This document shows, in pieces, positions 51,948-59,617 of a stretch of DNA of 64,000 bases; within the stretch, counting starts at the first letter, position 1, and every line of letters starts with the position of its first letter. Below the pieces are notes generated by a model. The model saw nothing but the letters and a program-made list of their open reading frames with translations, had not been told where the DNA came from and did no database searches. The position numbers and the translations under genes were made by a program. The stretch is from contig NZ_CAMYKO010000004.1 in NCBI RefSeq assembly GCF_947259025.1, forward strand, positions 124,001 to 188,000, in the 5' to 3' direction. Origin of the DNA: an uncultured Methylophaga sp. GTDB lineage: Bacteria > Pseudomonadota > Gammaproteobacteria > Nitrosococcales > Methylophagaceae.

Positions 51948-52098
51948 TCATTTAACGGCTTGATATTGAAATAATTCTGACGTAATTTAAGAGTTAAATG
52001 CACAGTAACCTCTTGATGCTAGGGAATAGCCAAGAACTATAAATATGAAAAATAGCATTTAATGGCGAGGAAGCCATAGAGGTCACGGAGACAATTTG

Positions 52099-53457
52099 AT
52101 GACTAGCAGATCCGAGCGCGCACTCGTATACATGGGGAATGGCAACGTCCCCGACGATCTGTGGGATGAATTCCAGTCAAATGACTGGTATGTGCAAAAG
52201 GCACAGACCGTTGAGGATGTTAAGCAGTCCGTTATTGATCACGATCCCAAGGTCGGGCTGGTAGAACTATCCTGTCAACAATCAGAGTCGTGTCTTCAGG
52301 CAATAGAAGATATGCTCAGACAGCATGCCAGAATCGAGTGGATAGCGCTGGTACAGACAGAGTCATCTTTGCCTCCCAGGCTAAGACAAATCATTGCTGA
52401 TTCCTTTATAGATTTTCATACCTTACCGGTTGATACCAGTCATCTGCTGGCCAACATTGGCCATGCTTATGGTATGGCGCGAATGAAATGGGACAATGTC
52501 CAGTTTCCAGATGAAGTCGAGACACTGGAAAAGGAGATGGTCGGCAGCAGTCAGCAGATCCGTAACCTGTTTTCCAAAATCCGCAAGGTCGCCGGTGTCT
52601 CTGCCCCCGTATTGGTCACTGGTGAAAGTGGTACCGGCAAGGAACTCACTGCCCATGCTATTCATGAACGCTCAAAGTGTGCTGACGGCCCCTTTGTCAC
52701 GGTGAATTGCGGTGCGATACCGACCTCTCTGGTGCAGTCAGAATTGTTTGGTTACGAAAAAGGCGCCTTTACCGGTGCCAACCAACGCAAGATCGGTCAC
52801 TTTGAAGCGGCCGATGGTGGGACTATTTTCCTGGATGAAGTCGGCGATCTGCCGCTGGACCAACAAATCAACCTGCTGCGTTTCCTGCAGGAAGGCACGA
52901 TTCAGCGTGTCGGCGGCAGTCAGCAGATTCCGGTCAATGCCCGTGTCATTGCGGCCACGCATGTGGATCTGGAAAAAGCCGTCAAATCAGGCAAGCTGCG
53001 TGAGGATCTTTTCTACCGCCTGAACGTATTGCAAATACACACTCCGCCGCTACGGGATCGGGTCGGTGATATTGAACTGCTGGCCAATTATTTCTTCCAG
53101 AAGTTCTCACATGAGAAAAGTAATAACGTCAAAGGCTTCTCCCAGTCCTGTCTTTCTGTGATGCGTGACTATCACTGGGAAGGCAATGTAAGGGAACTGG
53201 TCAACCGCATTCGTCATGCCATGGTCATGTGTGAAAACCGCATGATTTCTGCCGAGGATCTGGGCATTGACCAATCCTCTCCCCGCTATCACTTTATGAC
53301 ACTTAAAGAAGCCAAGAACCGGGCCGAACAGGAAGCGATTCTCAACACCCTGGCCCGCCACAATCACAACGTCACTGCTGCTGCCAAAACTTTGGGTGTT
53401 TCCAGAGTCACCCTCTATCGCCTGATAGAAAAGCACGGTATCTCGGTTAATCTCTGA
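52099..53457 (+). CDS. Sigma54-type enhancer-binding transcriptional regulator with VpsR-like N-terminal domain
   Basis: Walker A GESGTGKE, KGAFTGAN, C-terminal Fis-type HTH (NHNVTAAAKTLGVSRVTLYRLIEKHGI); N-terminal domain ends in IGHAYGMARMKWD as in VpsR-like regulators. Confidence 0.88.
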   Translation: MTSRSERALVYMGNGNVPDDLWDEFQSNDWYVQKAQTVEDVKQSVIDHDPKVGLVELSCQQSESCLQAIEDMLRQHARIEWIALVQTESSLPPRLRQIIADSFIDFHTLPVDTSHLLANIGHAYGMARMKWDNVQFPDEVETLEKEMVGSSQQIRNLFSKIRKVAGVSAPVLVTGESGTGKELTAHAIHERSKCADGPFVTVNCGAIPTSLVQSELFGYEKGAFTGANQRKIGHFEAADGGTIFLDEVGDLPLDQQINLLRFLQEGTIQRVGGSQQIPVNARVIAATHVDLEKAVKSGKLREDLFYRLNVLQIHTPPLRDRVGDIELLANYFFQKFSHEKSNNVKGFSQSCLSVMRDYHWEGNVRELVNRIRHAMVMCENRMISAEDLGIDQSSPRYHFMTLKEAKNRAEQEAILNTLARHNHNVTAAAKTLGVSRVTLYRLIEKHGISVNL

Positions 53458-53705: not shown

Positions 53706-53720
53706 TGGCACAGTCCATGA
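53706..53720 (+). promoter_or_regulatory. Candidate sigma54 promoter: perfect -24 (TGGCAC), degenerate -12 (ATGA in place of TTGC)
   Basis: TGGCACAGTCCATGA; about 72 bp downstream of UAS 2 and 45 bp upstream of the first gene. Confidence 0.35.
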
Positions 53721-53762
53721 ATTGTTTTCTTTCACCAAGAGAACAAAGCAGAGTCGCTTTCC

Positions 53763-54053
53763 ATGAAAAACAGCCTGACTACATTTGCTATCACTGCGCT
53801 ACTACTGGCCGCTCCGGTCAGTGTGTGGGCTGATGATGCTGATGCATGGCTGCTCCCGGCGACCCTGGAAGTGTCATCGCAACCCTCTCCCAAACTGATC
53901 CACGACACAGATTTATCCACCATGCGAGGCCAGGGCTTCAAAATGCCCGAGTTCGATATTGGGGTGATTCTCTGGGATGAGGTTGATAGCGGTGCCAAAC
54001 CCAAAACCCATCACTCCAGTGGTGATGGCGCTTTCACTGTCACGGTTGAATAA
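53763..54053 (+). CDS. Small exported protein at the head of the fap-like operon; unknown family, LSTMRGQGF motif
   Basis: Signal peptide MKNSLTTFAITALLLAAPVSVWADD; first gene after the candidate promoter. Confidence 0.75.
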   Translation: MKNSLTTFAITALLLAAPVSVWADDADAWLLPATLEVSSQPSPKLIHDTDLSTMRGQGFKMPEFDIGVILWDEVDSGAKPKTHHSSGDGAFTVTVE

Positions 54054-54054
54054 A

Positions 54055-54549
54055 ATGAAATCAAGTAACAATAAAATTTATTCACTGATTGATGCGGCCG
54101 TCATTATTATTTTGCTGGCGATGGCCTCGTCAGTTCAGGCTGATCCCGGCGATATCATTATTCTGCGCGACGTCCCACCACAACGCTGGGATGTGAATCG
54201 TCATACCGGCCAGCCCACTATCATCAATCCATCCCCGGTCAAAGAAACGACAGCCCTCGGCAATACATTGCAGGACATGGGCGTTGATGAACTGACCGAT
54301 CAACAATTTTCCGGTATCACATCCAACGCCGTATCAGGCTCCTCGACGGTTAACAGTAACTTTGCCAACACCGTGACTAACCAATTGGGCAGTCACGGCA
54401 GTGGTAATGGTGTTTCCAGTCAGATGAGCACACTCAACAGTATCACCTCAGGTCTTGGTGGCAGTATTTCCGGCAGTGTCGGCGGTGCCACCAAAAACCT
54501 CGGTAGCGATATCCGTGGTGCGTTATCGGACACTTTTCCAGGTAGATAA
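54055..54549 (+). CDS. Exported protein, positional equivalent of FapA
   Basis: ATG one base after the previous stop; hydrophobic N-terminal signal (AAVIIILLAMASSVQA), Ser/Gly/Asn-rich C-terminus. Confidence 0.65.
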   Translation: MKSSNNKIYSLIDAAVIIILLAMASSVQADPGDIIILRDVPPQRWDVNRHTGQPTIINPSPVKETTALGNTLQDMGVDELTDQQFSGITSNAVSGSSTVNSNFANTVTNQLGSHGSGNGVSSQMSTLNSITSGLGGSISGSVGGATKNLGSDIRGALSDTFPGR

Positions 54550-54551
54550 CT

Positions 54552-55169
54552 ATGAAGCTCTTACCTTTCAGTCTGCTGTTTGCTTCATTGTTGCCATCAT
54601 TGCCGGCGGCGATCGCTGACGATGCATTGACCGGACTGCCTTATGCCATCAACAGCAGCATGATCGACGGTCATGCGCTTAGTGGCAGCAGAGGACGGAA
54701 CGTCGTCAATATGGCGGCGGGTGATGCCAATGCCCAGCAAAATGCGGCGGCCATTGCACTGAGTCCTAATGGCAATGCCAGCATTGGACTCTTCACACAG
54801 CAGAACCTACATCAGAATTCCAGCACAAGCCCGGGCATGTCCATCTCCGGTATTGGTGGTAACGCCTTTACCAACACGATGGGCGCGCTCTCGATTAACC
54901 AGACCAGTGGCACGGGCAATGCCCAGGTCAATGGGATGGCAATCGGGATTGGGCTGGATGTCGACGTCATGTCGGAAAACATGCTTTCCAACATGTCGAC
55001 CGGGGCTGGACTGGCAGCCCGCGAGCCAGACGATGGAACCCGGAGTGCCACTATCGCTGATAGTGCCTTCACCGGTTCACGTGGGCTGGTGCAAGTTAAC
55101 CAGTCAGCCGGGTCGGGCAATAGCACGGCCAACAACTTTGTTCTCCAGATTGAACTGGGAACGAAATAA
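54552..55169 (+). CDS. FapB-like minor amyloid/nucleator candidate with three degenerate repeats
   Basis: Signal peptide; ALSGSRGRNVVNMAAGDANAQQNAAAIALS / AFTNTMGALSINQTSGTGNAQVNGMAIGIG / AFTGSRGLVQVNQSAGSGNSTANNFVLQIELG. Confidence 0.65.
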   Translation: MKLLPFSLLFASLLPSLPAAIADDALTGLPYAINSSMIDGHALSGSRGRNVVNMAAGDANAQQNAAAIALSPNGNASIGLFTQQNLHQNSSTSPGMSISGIGGNAFTNTMGALSINQTSGTGNAQVNGMAIGIGLDVDVMSENMLSNMSTGAGLAAREPDDGTRSATIADSAFTGSRGLVQVNQSAGSGNSTANNFVLQIELGTK

Positions 55170-55191
55170 TTGTGATTAAAAGGAGAAAGTC

Positions 55192-56427
55192 ATGAAATTA
55201 TCAACCAAGTACACACCCATTGCTGTCGCGTTGGCTGCGTTAGCTGCTGGCCCAGCAATGGCCGGTCAACCAGGTCACAGCGGCACACTCGATGTTGGCA
55301 TTCTGGTCGACGCCAAAGTCAATGCCAGAGCTGATCTGGGACTGAGCGTATCGAAATACAAAAACGATACTGAAGTCACAGTCGAAAAAACCTCTGACAC
55401 CGATCGTTACATTGATGTGAAAGGTGATATCGACGTTGACGGAACCATTCCTGTTGGTAGTAGCTCTGCGGCTTTAACTAGTCAGAATCAGAACAACTAC
55501 AAAAACGGAAACGTTTACGATCCTGAAGATCCCGAGAATGCAGCTCTTGTTGCGAGCGACACACCTAACGATGGCGACTTTCTTGTCGACAATAAAGCTG
55601 AGTCCGTTGAAAACGGTCTGCAAGGAGCCAGCGGTAATATCGGCCTGAATATCTCAGCAGGGCAAAACAACGCACAGGACAACAGTGCTGCCTTATCAAA
55701 AGTGGATGCCGAGTTTGTGTTTGCTGCTGCAGACTCTATCTCCAACCAGAACGCTGAACGTAATCAATACGTTTACAAAGGTAATCAGTTTGATGCCACT
55801 CTGGGCGGAAACACACTACGTGATGCCAGCGGTAATATCGCTGTAAACATTGCAGCCGGTAACAGTAACCTGCAAGCCAACTCCCTGGCTGCCTCTGTTA
55901 ACACCAGTGGCACTATGGCTGAAGCGACCGTTTCCAGCCAGCAAACACAGGATCATAACTTCACTTCACAACAAGGTATGCTGGAAAAAGTATACGACAC
56001 AGTGAATGTGACTATGGTCGGTGGCATGGTTGGTGGCTATCAAGGTACCTCTGACCAGATTGGCGATCTGTATGCTGACTCCTGGACTGGTGATACTCAT
56101 CCAGATGGCACACAAACCGGTCATATTGACTTCGACAGTGAAGCCCAGGGCGCTGTAGATCTCAATGATGACGGTGGTGCATTTGCATTCAATGAAGAAG
56201 GCACAATTGGTCTGCTCGGCGTATTCAGTGGCCAAGTGGTAACCGCACGCTGGATTGACCGTCCACATCAAAACAATGCCACTCTGAGTGGTAATGCACT
56301 GCGCGGCGCCAGCGGTAATATCGGTGTCAACATCACTGCTGGTACTAACAACCTGCAAGGTAACCACCTGTCAATCGCAGCAGCGACTGGTGGCCCAGCA
56401 GGCGGTGGTGGTGGTGGCGAACAATAA
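55192..56427 (+). CDS. FapC-like functional amyloid subunit, three imperfect repeats with unequal linkers
   Basis: AGGAG RBS, signal peptide, repeats ASGNIGLNISAGQNNAQDN / ASGNIAVNIAAGNSNLQAN / ASGNIGVNITAGTNNLQGN (codon starts 55627, 55825, 56308). Confidence 0.8.
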   Translation: MKLSTKYTPIAVALAALAAGPAMAGQPGHSGTLDVGILVDAKVNARADLGLSVSKYKNDTEVTVEKTSDTDRYIDVKGDIDVDGTIPVGSSSAALTSQNQNNYKNGNVYDPEDPENAALVASDTPNDGDFLVDNKAESVENGLQGASGNIGLNISAGQNNAQDNSAALSKVDAEFVFAAADSISNQNAERNQYVYKGNQFDATLGGNTLRDASGNIAVNIAAGNSNLQANSLAASVNTSGTMAEATVSSQQTQDHNFTSQQGMLEKVYDTVNVTMVGGMVGGYQGTSDQIGDLYADSWTGDTHPDGTQTGHIDFDSEAQGAVDLNDDGGAFAFNEEGTIGLLGVFSGQVVTARWIDRPHQNNATLSGNALRGASGNIGVNITAGTNNLQGNHLSIAAATGGPAGGGGGGEQ

Positions 56428-56428
56428 A

Positions 56429-56496
56429 ATCAAACCTTCATTGGTTTGATGCCACAACCAAAGAGAATCTCCGGCTCCTTCGGGAGCCGGAGTTTT
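56429..56496 (+). terminator. Two consecutive perfect hairpins in the fapC-fapD-like intergenic region (attenuator or mRNA-stabilising element)
   Basis: ATCAAACC-TTCATT-GGTTTGAT (56429-56450) and CTCCGGCTCC-TTCG-GGAGCCGGAG (56469-56492) followed by TTTT. Confidence 0.8.
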
Positions 56497-56516
56497 CCTC
56501 CCACAAGGTTAGTATT

Positions 56517-57218
56517 ATGAAATTCACCAAAACCACACTGCTGCTTCTCACCACATCCAGCCTCTGGCTGTCGATGTCAATAAGCAGTGCGGCCAATATG
56601 CAATTTGGTGGTGTCGTCCCCGGCACCATGATTACTAAGAACATCATCAGTATGCGCGAGCGGCACTTTATCGATATGGTGCCTCAGCAGACTGATTTCA
56701 GTTGCGGGGCAGCGGCCCTGGCGACCATTCTCAACTATGCCTATGGCTATGATTTTACAGAAGCCGATGTCATCGCCGGCATGCTCAAGGTCAGCAACCC
56801 GGAACTGGTACAAACCAAGGGGTTTTCACTGCTGGATATTAAACATTATGTGGAAACCCTGGGATTGCGAGGCAGGGGTTATACCGTGAACCCGGAAATC
56901 CTTGACCGCATCAAAATCCCCACCATTGTTTTGCTTGATATACGTGGCTACAAACATTTCGTCGTCCTCAAAAAGGCGACGCCCGAAAAGGTATATATCG
57001 CTGATCCGGCTCTGGGCAACAGAGTCATGGACAGGCAAGACTTCGTAGATGGCTGGAACAAAGTCACTTTTGCCGTTATCGGCAATGGCTTTGATCGTGA
57101 AACCATTCTGTTACGTCCCAAACAACCGCTGACAGCCAGAAATACGGTAGACACCTGGAGACCGCTAACAGATGCCGAGTTGGTTGAGTACGGATTCTAT
57201 CGTTCCGAACTGTTCTGA
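56517..57218 (+). CDS. C39-family cysteine peptidase, FapD-like
   Basis: Signal peptide; QQTDFSCGAAALATILNYAYGYDFTEADVI, GYKHFVVLKKA, YIADPALGNRVM (Cys/His/Asp). Confidence 0.85.
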   Translation: MKFTKTTLLLLTTSSLWLSMSISSAANMQFGGVVPGTMITKNIISMRERHFIDMVPQQTDFSCGAAALATILNYAYGYDFTEADVIAGMLKVSNPELVQTKGFSLLDIKHYVETLGLRGRGYTVNPEILDRIKIPTIVLLDIRGYKHFVVLKKATPEKVYIADPALGNRVMDRQDFVDGWNKVTFAVIGNGFDRETILLRPKQPLTARNTVDTWRPLTDAELVEYGFYRSELF

Positions 57219-57282
57219 AGTTGGCCTGACCATTGATTGTCATTCAGGGAAGGATCAAGCAAAGATAGGGAGAAAGGACAAA

Positions 57283-58149
57283 ATGAAAACTAAAACAGTC
57301 ACGCGCGGCAGGGAAAACCGCTCGTCAACAGACAAAGGAGGTCGCGCTGTCAGCAAGCTGTTGAAGCCCCGCATTGTAGCGGCTTCAGCCTTGTTATTCT
57401 GTCTTTCCCCGGTTCATTATGCACACGCTGAATTGCCTGAAATGAGCGTTTTTGCCAATGCTCAGGAGTTATCAGACGATGTGCTGGGTGAGACGCGGGG
57501 TAAATTTGTTTCTGCCGGAGAAATCATGACCTTCGGCGTAAAAATGGTAACGGAATGGGTCACCTCAACAGGTGAAGTCATTAATGCCAGCGGGACGCTG
57601 GCTGTGAACATGGGGACGGGGCAACCCACTGTCCGTTTTGAACCGCTGATCAGCGTCCATCAGGGTCAGCCAGTCAACCAAGTCGCTTCATCGGGCAATA
57701 ATATCGTCAATAGCGGGCAGGGCCTGGAAAACGTGTCCGGTGTCGTACAGACCATACAGGTTGCCGGTAATACCAACGGCATTGGTAACACCATTGGTGT
57801 GTCTGTCAGACGCTATCAACAGGACAACAATACGCCTGCTGGAAATACTGCTTCCAACCTGAATGTGACAACACCGTCCGGTAACACAGCTGGCGTGGCT
57901 TTAGCCAATAATGGCTTATCGGTGAACGTCAATGTGCTCAACCAGGGTCAGGCACAGCAGGCAATTCGCAGCGTTTCCCAGGGTAATGGGCAGGTGCTGC
58001 AATCCGTTCGTCTGGGCGGTGATCTGAACCAGATCCGCAACATGATCAATCTGGATATTCAAACCCGTAACCGTGCGGTGTCATCAACTGCCAATACGCA
58101 AAATCTGGTGTCGTCATTACGGCAGTTGTCGCAGAGCACACCTTTTTAG
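57283..58149 (+). CDS. FapE-like exported protein with degenerate amyloid-type repeats
   Basis: Internal start MKTKTVTRGREN; long basic n-region then signal; ELSDDVLGETRGKFVSAGEIMTFGVKMVTEW; repeats GLENVSGVVQTIQVAGNTNGIGN etc. Confidence 0.7.
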   Translation: MKTKTVTRGRENRSSTDKGGRAVSKLLKPRIVAASALLFCLSPVHYAHAELPEMSVFANAQELSDDVLGETRGKFVSAGEIMTFGVKMVTEWVTSTGEVINASGTLAVNMGTGQPTVRFEPLISVHQGQPVNQVASSGNNIVNSGQGLENVSGVVQTIQVAGNTNGIGNTIGVSVRRYQQDNNTPAGNTASNLNVTTPSGNTAGVALANNGLSVNVNVLNQGQAQQAIRSVSQGNGQVLQSVRLGGDLNQIRNMINLDIQTRNRAVSSTANTQNLVSSLRQLSQSTPF

Positions 58150-58276
58150 GGAACTCAACATATAAAGGATTAAAAGGCTGATGAATGTGATTGAGTCTTC
58201 ACAAAAATTTGACATCAATAAACCCGTGTTTAATACTCCAATTAAACGGGGTTGTCTCATTAGCCGAGGACTTGAA

Positions 58277-59563
58277 ATGCATTCAATATCATTTCGTTAC
58301 ACTACCCTGAGCTTCTGTATCGGTCTGGCCCTGGCCACACCGGTACAGGCTGCTTCAGACCCGGAAGTCGAAGCGCTGCAACAACAAGTTAAGGAAATGC
58401 AGCAACGCTATGAGCAGCAAAATGCGGTGCTCAAGGCGATGGCGGTCAAGATACAAAAACTTGAGCAGGAATCGCAGCCCCGTAATGTCAAAGTCGGCGG
58501 CGCCCAGCCTCAACCCAACACCTCTGCTGAGCAGGGAGAACCGGGCGGCACAACACCAGCCAATACCCAACAGGCCCAGAACGGCGAAGAAGTAGTTAAA
58601 GAAGCCCCCGCCTCACGTAGTGCGGAAGCGGTCTATCGTGAGCAGCACGCCCTCTTTGACCGCAAGTTCACCATTGAACCCGGCATTACCTATTCACATT
58701 CAGACCGTCGCGATCTGTTCCTCAATGGTTTTTTGGCACTGGATGCTATATTCCTGGGTAATATCAGTCTGGATCGAGTCAAAGCCGATACCTGGACCTT
58801 TGATTTAACCGGTCGCTACAGCTACAGCGATCGGCTGCAATTTGATGTCAATGTCCCCTACCTCTACCGTGACTCATCGTTCAATACCTCTGGTGCTGGA
58901 TTTGCCACCGATCAGCTTGCCGAAGGCGATGTGTCTAATGGTGATTTTGGTGATGTCAGCTTTGGTGCCTTCTATCGACTGTTTCAAGAACAGGGCGCCC
59001 GACCTGACACCGTGCTGAGCCTGCGGGTCAAGACACCAACAGGTAAGGACCCCTATGGCATCAAATTTGTAGAAGTGGCAGACAGTGGTGGTAATCTCAC
59101 CCTGCCGACCGAGTTGCCGACCGGTAATGGTGTCTGGTCAGTGACGCCGGGCATCAGCGTGATAAAAACCACCGACCCCGCGATTCTGTTCGCCAACTTC
59201 TCTTATACCTATAACTTTGAAGAGTCATTTAGTGATATCAGCACTGATGTCGATACCCGCACCAGCGCTGATGTCGACCTGGGTGATAGCTTTGCATTCG
59301 GCGCCGGTTTTGCTTTTGCCCTCAACGAAAGGTTGAGTGCCAGTATGTCGTACTCTCATCGCATCACACGTGAGACCACTATCAAACAAAGTGGCCAGTC
59401 TGAGCAAAGCATTAACGGCAGCGATGCCAGTGCTGGCCTGCTCAACTTCGGTATCAGTTACAGCCTGGGTGATAACCTGACTATGACCGGTAATGTGGGC
59501 ATTGGTATTACCCCGGATGCCCCGGATGTCACGGTCGGCTTCCGTTTCCCGTATAACTTCTGA
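58277..59563 (+). CDS. FapF-like outer-membrane beta-barrel with N-terminal coiled coil
   Basis: Signal peptide, VEALQQQVKEMQQRYEQQNAVLKAMAVKIQKLEQE coiled coil, low-complexity linker, barrel KFTIEPGITYSHSDRRDLFLNGFLALDAIFLGNISLD ... VTVGFRFPYNF. Confidence 0.8.
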   Translation: MHSISFRYTTLSFCIGLALATPVQAASDPEVEALQQQVKEMQQRYEQQNAVLKAMAVKIQKLEQESQPRNVKVGGAQPQPNTSAEQGEPGGTTPANTQQAQNGEEVVKEAPASRSAEAVYREQHALFDRKFTIEPGITYSHSDRRDLFLNGFLALDAIFLGNISLDRVKADTWTFDLTGRYSYSDRLQFDVNVPYLYRDSSFNTSGAGFATDQLAEGDVSNGDFGDVSFGAFYRLFQEQGARPDTVLSLRVKTPTGKDPYGIKFVEVADSGGNLTLPTELPTGNGVWSVTPGISVIKTTDPAILFANFSYTYNFEESFSDISTDVDTRTSADVDLGDSFAFGAGFAFALNERLSASMSYSHRITRETTIKQSGQSEQSINGSDASAGLLNFGISYSLGDNLTMTGNVGIGITPDAPDVTVGFRFPYNF

Positions 59564-59588: not shown

Positions 59589-59617
59589 AGAACCGGCTTC
59601 CTGCCGGTTCTTTTTTA
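59589..59617 (+). terminator. Intrinsic terminator closing the fap-like operon
   Basis: AGAACCGGC-TTCCT-GCCGGTTCT-TTTTT. Confidence 0.88.

Follow-up and report, generated by a model that had tools for sequence, protein, structure and literature searches.

The DNA analysed here is a stretch of 64,000 nucleotides from an uncultured Methylophaga sp. (contig NZ_CAMYKO010000004.1, positions 124,001 to 188,000), referred to as the window. At 53763-59563 its forward strand carries seven co-directional open reading frames (ORFs): a short unnamed gene, called X in the following, and then fapA, fapB, fapC, fapD, fapE and fapF. Judged by its sequence, the locus is a complete and genuine operon for the Fap functional amyloid, with its head extended by a recurrent seventh gene. 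What is new at the locus is gene X at the head and a leader motif common to X and FapE. We lean slightly towards a joint reading of both: the C39 peptidase FapD would recognise, and most likely cut, FapE and X at the shared motif, thereby licensing the export of FapC through FapF.

The Fap identity was based on the NCBIfam profiles. Six of the seven genes were found to be FapA to FapF in the canonical order, with E values (expected numbers of chance matches) from 7.7e-11 (FapA) to 1.5e-149 (FapF). Chance is excluded because every one of the six matches a profile of its own and the order is canonical. No protein of the six reached its equivalog cut-off, meaning that they are divergent members. 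An unrelated secretion family was rejected, as the barrel and C39 proteins match the Fap models far better than those of FilB/FilC. The signal peptides of the window Fap proteins were judged by eye from the protein sequences. A first-pass annotation of this DNA had described seven genes in one direction and a Fap homologue far from the pseudomonads. The ORF check and the profile search agree with the direction and the homology; a Fap outside the pseudomonads is not new. Fap was reported from Beta-, Gamma- and Deltaproteobacteria in 2013: its genes stand as a rule in the order fapABCDEF, and the common departures are a missing fapA or a fapF located apart from the rest (PMC3792158). Another 25 genera came from a later survey (PMC6173800). 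As Fap was already known outside Pseudomonas (about 39 genera), the window operon adds one member to a known system. By homology, its product would be an amyloid fibre with a role in biofilms.

Gene X and its distribution

X (53763..54053, forward strand) is the first gene of the operon and encodes a 96-aa exported protein with a visible signal peptide. Profile scans assigned no Pfam or NCBIfam family to it. The same scans of four X relatives gave no match at all for three and one match far under the family cut-off for the fourth. The family is nevertheless conserved: the signal peptide is visible, followed by an LxDxxLxxxRGxG motif and a V-x-LWDE core, and L51, L70, W71, D72 and E73 are invariant in the family alignment. 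The C-terminus often is a G-x-x-N-x-Q half-repeat.

An additional small exported protein before fapA had been claimed earlier, as part of a non-canonical head. The protein is present, but the head is no peculiarity of one genome. Among 79 named fap loci fetched by FapD similarity, X was found in 36, namely in most Halomonadaceae and in Methylotenera, Marinobacterium, Amphritea, Acidiferrobacterales and others; some loci counted as X-less may be cut by a contig end, and four such rows were set aside. The neighbourhoods of FapF-bearing genomes showed X in the fap operons of G002, G171, G379, G179, G279, G301 and G194, and also in a Fap-like locus of G189. Two tandem duplicated fap operons were seen, each copy with its own X (L104, Halomonas sp. 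NO4, and G479:C78). A further fap locus with X lies in a bin labelled Bryobacterales (Acidobacteriota; L111), where a binning error is possible.

X tracks the fap loci in wider searches as well. With nine X query sequences, a class-wide search of 369 genomes found X in 11, and all matches at E<=1e-8 adjoin fap or fap-like genes. This includes the four matches outside the set used for model building (G210, G371, G318 and a second one in G301). In a phylum-wide draw of 399 genomes, 38 of which have FapD, all confident X matches outside the window (two in G479, one each in G698 and G770) were less than 5 kb from a FapD match. Two marginal matches were not counted as X: G411 gave one in a frame of 563 aa (E 1e-3, FapD absent), and in G480 a match at E 1e-4 lay within a 332-aa frame adjacent to FapD.

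The FapD tree was made with a quick method and has support values of the Shimodaira–Hasegawa-like approximate likelihood ratio test (SH-aLRT) only. X occurred in 0 of the 32 rows of the clade dominated by Pseudomonas and Halopseudomonas. Loci branching close to the base on the Fap side have X, as do two outgroup loci, and the presence/absence label requires nine changes among the Fap rows. An early X, later lost in Pseudomonas, would fit this tree, which cannot prove loss over gain. The Pseudomonas operon does not show Fap in full: a seventh, unnamed gene is found in many halophiles, methylotrophs and marine bacteria.

The leader-like motif and its possible role

FapD (56517..57218, forward strand; NF058616, 2.5e-88) is a C39 peptidase (Peptidase_C39, 7e-22) with C63, H147 and D163, confirming the Cys/His/Asp noticed earlier in this 233-aa protein. 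The three residues are invariant in 12 orthologues, and a sequence search matched the solved double-glycine protease 6mpz at E 1.5e-6. The visible signal peptide points to a periplasmic location. In Pseudomonas, the catalytic Cys of FapD is required for FapC secretion, and peptides from the first ~70 residues of FapE are missing in mass spectra (PMC5557850). The target of FapD has been called unclear, and the Fap proteins have been said to be without canonical C39 sequences (PMC5557850, PMC6173800). Among open-licence papers, no later report identifying the target was found. The motif described below offers one short candidate recognition peptide for FapD, an enzyme essential to the secretion of Fap amyloid.

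FapE (57283..58149, forward strand; NF058559, 1.8e-33) carries the motif [LVI]-S-D-x-E-L-x-x-[LMI]-R-G-[KR] shortly behind its signal peptide. In 79 FapE proteins, D at -10 was found in 74, E at -8 in 66 and L at -7 in 78; since RG[KRG] was obligatory in the search pattern and L favoured at -7, these positions are not independent evidence. X carries a motif of the FapE type in the same place and register, followed by its unrelated core. Both proteins have the double-glycine spacing L-x3-E-[LI]-x2-[IVL]-x-G of C39 leaders (consensus from PMC3140520), with deviations in the window at -8 (D in X, V in FapE) and -4 (M in X, T in FapE).

A scoring matrix was built from 16 FapE leaders, leaving out the window, and applied to 629 proteins. 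FapE and X proteins had the top scores, together with two FapF linkers and the exported RGG proteins from Fap-like loci. The window FapE motif (LSDDVLGETRGK, 57469..57504, forward strand) ranked 14 of 629 though excluded from training, and the X motif (IHDTDLSTMRGQ, 53898..53933, forward strand) ranked 28 of 629 with a matrix trained on FapE leaders only. When the matrix was taken only from FapE of X-less loci, X still stood apart from other proteins (Mann-Whitney, 4e-19), with a median score of 5.0 versus -5.0 for unclassified proteins. In the permuted-column control, medians were never above -0.4.

From these data the following course can be proposed. The operon products would be exported by Sec. 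FapC would form the fibre, with FapB as the likely nucleator and FapF as the trimeric outer-membrane channel. FapE and X would present a second leader of the C39 double-glycine type behind the signal peptide (LSDxELxxLRG, then K, R or Q). Periplasmic FapD would bind this leader and most likely cut behind it; mature FapE and, from X, the short V-x-LWDE core would be set free, which would license the passage of FapC through FapF. X would probably end as a small fibre-associated subunit, as its frequent half-repeat end suggests. Transcription would probably be driven by the adjoining sigma-54 activator with a VpsR domain, like BrfA in Pseudomonas fluorescens.

Several points weigh against this proposal. 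Pseudomonas lacks X, which Fap systems in general can therefore do without. At the last leader position, 79 of 79 FapE proteins have K or R and the window X has Q, in place of the usual Gly, Ala or Ser of C39 sites. The motif is therefore named C39-leader-like only, the cut position is uncertain, and it may be a docking site. The p-value for X in the matrix from X-less loci (Mann-Whitney, 4e-19) overstates independence because X proteins are mutually homologous, and only 15 of 37 X exceeded the 99th percentile of other proteins. The FapE residues just past the motif (Y-F-G-x-E-M) are likewise conserved, so that part of the motif conservation may be structural. Finally, the operon in the window has only a weak sigma-54 site (score 11.5 of 15, shuffle p 0.08).

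The strongest competitor is docking without cleavage, which we nevertheless regard as unlikely: FapD or the FapF coiled coil would bind FapE and X via the motif, possibly FapA and certain FapF linkers as well, and leave them uncut. The basic P1 (last leader residue, K or R) would suit this, as would the similar motif in a few FapF linkers and a conserved internal LSDxDFAxVxSG stretch of FapA, a protein reported to be unprocessed (PMC5557850). The need for the catalytic Cys and the absence of the FapE N-terminus from mass spectra argue for cleavage instead. The FapA stretch has the spacing of the leader motif (LTDQQFSGITSN, 54292..54327, forward strand), and its D82 is the most conserved FapA column (D in 48 of 49). 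As a 9-residue core matrix (positions -12 to -4) separated FapA or X poorly from FapB and FapD, the FapA stretch is kept as a weak lead to a FapD recognition site. FapA, reported as unprocessed, may conceivably be a competitor or adaptor. Position 141 of FapD is acidic in 86 of 96 Fap loci versus about 1 of 12 sister loci (described below), where many other positions also differ; this residue might suit a basic P1.

Rather less probable still is an ordinary Fap operon with X as an accessory unconnected to FapD, the common motif being coincidental or part of a small folded domain. Fap does work in Pseudomonas without X, and the conservation of FapE continues past RG[KR]. Yet the mature parts of X and FapE are unrelated while the motif is common in one register, X follows the fap loci, and the sister loci have a canonical RGG. 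Least probable, and in our view improbable, is a FapD target elsewhere, with FapE trimmed by other proteases: cleavage of the FapF linker has been proposed (PMC5557850) and the window linker contains VGG, but a leader-like motif occurs in few FapF linkers versus 79 FapE proteins.

A FapF linker with a leader-like motif was observed at L041:2064-3398, at L042:10675-12018 and in L095 (e.g. PTDRELGHLRGKG); this is the region of the earlier suggested FapD cleavage.

Fibre genes, regulation and host genome

All features of this section lie on the forward strand. fapA (54055..54549) matched NF058617 chaperone_FapA at 7.7e-11, below the cut-off, and its start was corrected to 54055 from 53977. In two loci (L039:7815-8252 and L040:6205-6573), a recognisable fapA is missing and an unnamed exported protein of 122-145 aa stands in its position. 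fapB (54552..55169; NF058557, 6e-31) encodes the 205-aa protein, which also matches the FapC model at 1e-7 and does contain the three degenerate repeats first seen by eye. The major amyloid subunit is encoded by fapC (55192..56427; NF058558, 6.5e-47). The three repeats reported earlier for this 411-aa protein were located at residues 146-164, 212-230 and 373-391 (55627-55683, 55825-55881 and 56308-56364), with G, N and Q positions invariant in 13 orthologues. A sequence search matched window FapC to the solved FapC fibril 9nqd at E 1.8e-13. The AlphaFold model is of low confidence (mean predicted local distance difference test score 50) and was used only for its match to solved FapC: 9u4u was the sole significant structural match (E 1.1e-4).

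fapF (58277..59563; NF058560, 1.5e-149) most likely starts at 58277 and not at 58181. The Pfam family Phenol_MetA_deg matches this barrel protein. In the predicted fold, residues 29-65 form a helix and residues 114-123 a shorter one, with a low-confidence linker (66-112) between them and a beta-barrel following. This fold has the coiled coil, the plug helix and the barrel of a FapF, in line with the coiled coil, linker and barrel described before; the trimer is predicted by homology. FapF matched the FapF crystal structure 5o65 at E 1.4e-102 in the sequence search, and the predicted fold superposed on 5o67 with a template modelling (TM) score of 0.97 on the target and a root mean square deviation of 1.3.

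Between fapC and fapD lies a terminator-like hairpin (56469..56492; 10-bp stem, then TTTTCC, about -20 kcal/mol). It is also present in the congener G002, and a hairpin with a T-run occurs in the same gap of 20 of 63 other fap loci. Possibly this hairpin sets a high FapC to FapD ratio. A second terminator-like hairpin (59589..59611; 9-bp stem, then TTTTT) follows the operon end.

The regulator gene (52096..53457) encodes a sigma-54 enhancer-binding protein with a VpsR domain (Sigma54_activat 1e-70, VpsR 1.2e-18, HTH_8), a probable BrfA-type regulator of fap. A homologue adjoins most fap loci; in Pseudomonas it is the reverse gene downstream of fapF, where brfA has been reported to lie (PMC9207406). 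BrfA senses c-di-GMP and, together with RpoN, switches on fap (PMC9207406, PMC13101488). Domain content and position beside fap fit such a role in the window. The weak -24/-12-like site TGGCACAGTCCATGAA (53706..53721) is located 57 bp upstream of X; many fap operons are preceded by a good site (shuffle p<=0.02 in 54 of 82).

The methylotroph-like host suggested earlier fits the data: the source genome encodes a pyrroloquinoline quinone (PQQ) alcohol dehydrogenase above the family cut-off, and the methylotroph Methylotenera is among the nearest relatives by FapD. Within the genus the operon is sporadic, as only one of 23 sampled congeners (G002) had a strong FapF match. As the FapD tree also places window FapD beside Polaromonas (support 89) and Methylotenera (95), horizontal transfer of fap into this gammaproteobacterium is possible.

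Comparison with known systems

The window operon shares with Pseudomonas Fap (fapABCDEF with brfA) the six genes in order, the C39 FapD, the trimeric-type barrel FapF, the three-repeat FapC and an adjoining sigma-54 regulator. It differs in the extra gene before fapA, in a regulator gene that precedes the operon and is read in its direction, where that of Pseudomonas follows in reverse, in a FapC without the C-terminal CxxC and in scores that are all under the equivalog cut-offs. Most of the Halomonadaceae and Methylotenera operons found here have the regulator, X and fapA to fapE in the order of the window, whereas their sequences have diverged (FapD about 50-64% identical). In two Methylotenera loci, unlike in the window, fapF is upstream of the regulator.

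Nine loci (L056, L057, L072, L075, L077, L079, L080, L081 and L082) were observed to be Fap-like, with a C39 peptidase and a barrel; the same regulator is often present, and their unnamed exported proteins have canonical RGG leaders.

Fap-like C39-plus-barrel loci, among them the Acinetobacter FilB/FilC type (NF050078, NF050079), are a sister class to Fap. Common to both are the C39 peptidase, the barrel, leader-bearing exported proteins and often the type of regulator, and X occurs in L057 and L072. The differences are other repeat proteins, a separate FapD clade and a canonical RGG leader: the exported proteins beside the peptidase have leaders of the LxxxELxxLRGGF type (e.g. PLTDHELSSLRGGF, RVSNQELDQLRGGF). 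Tentatively, and at somewhat less than even confidence, Fap and its sister systems may form one Sec-dependent secretion class, in which substrates with a second, double-glycine-type leader behind the signal peptide are matured by a free-standing periplasmic C39 peptidase; the Fap substrates would be FapE and X, the latter early and lost in the Pseudomonas lineage, from which the textbook operon is taken.

C39 peptidase-containing ATP-binding cassette (ABC) transporters (PCAT1, LahT; 4ry2, 6mpz) have the same peptidase fold and the same register of a double-glycine-type leader. In contrast to them, FapD is a stand-alone periplasmic enzyme behind Sec, and P1 is K, R or Q in FapE and X instead of Gly, Ala or Ser.

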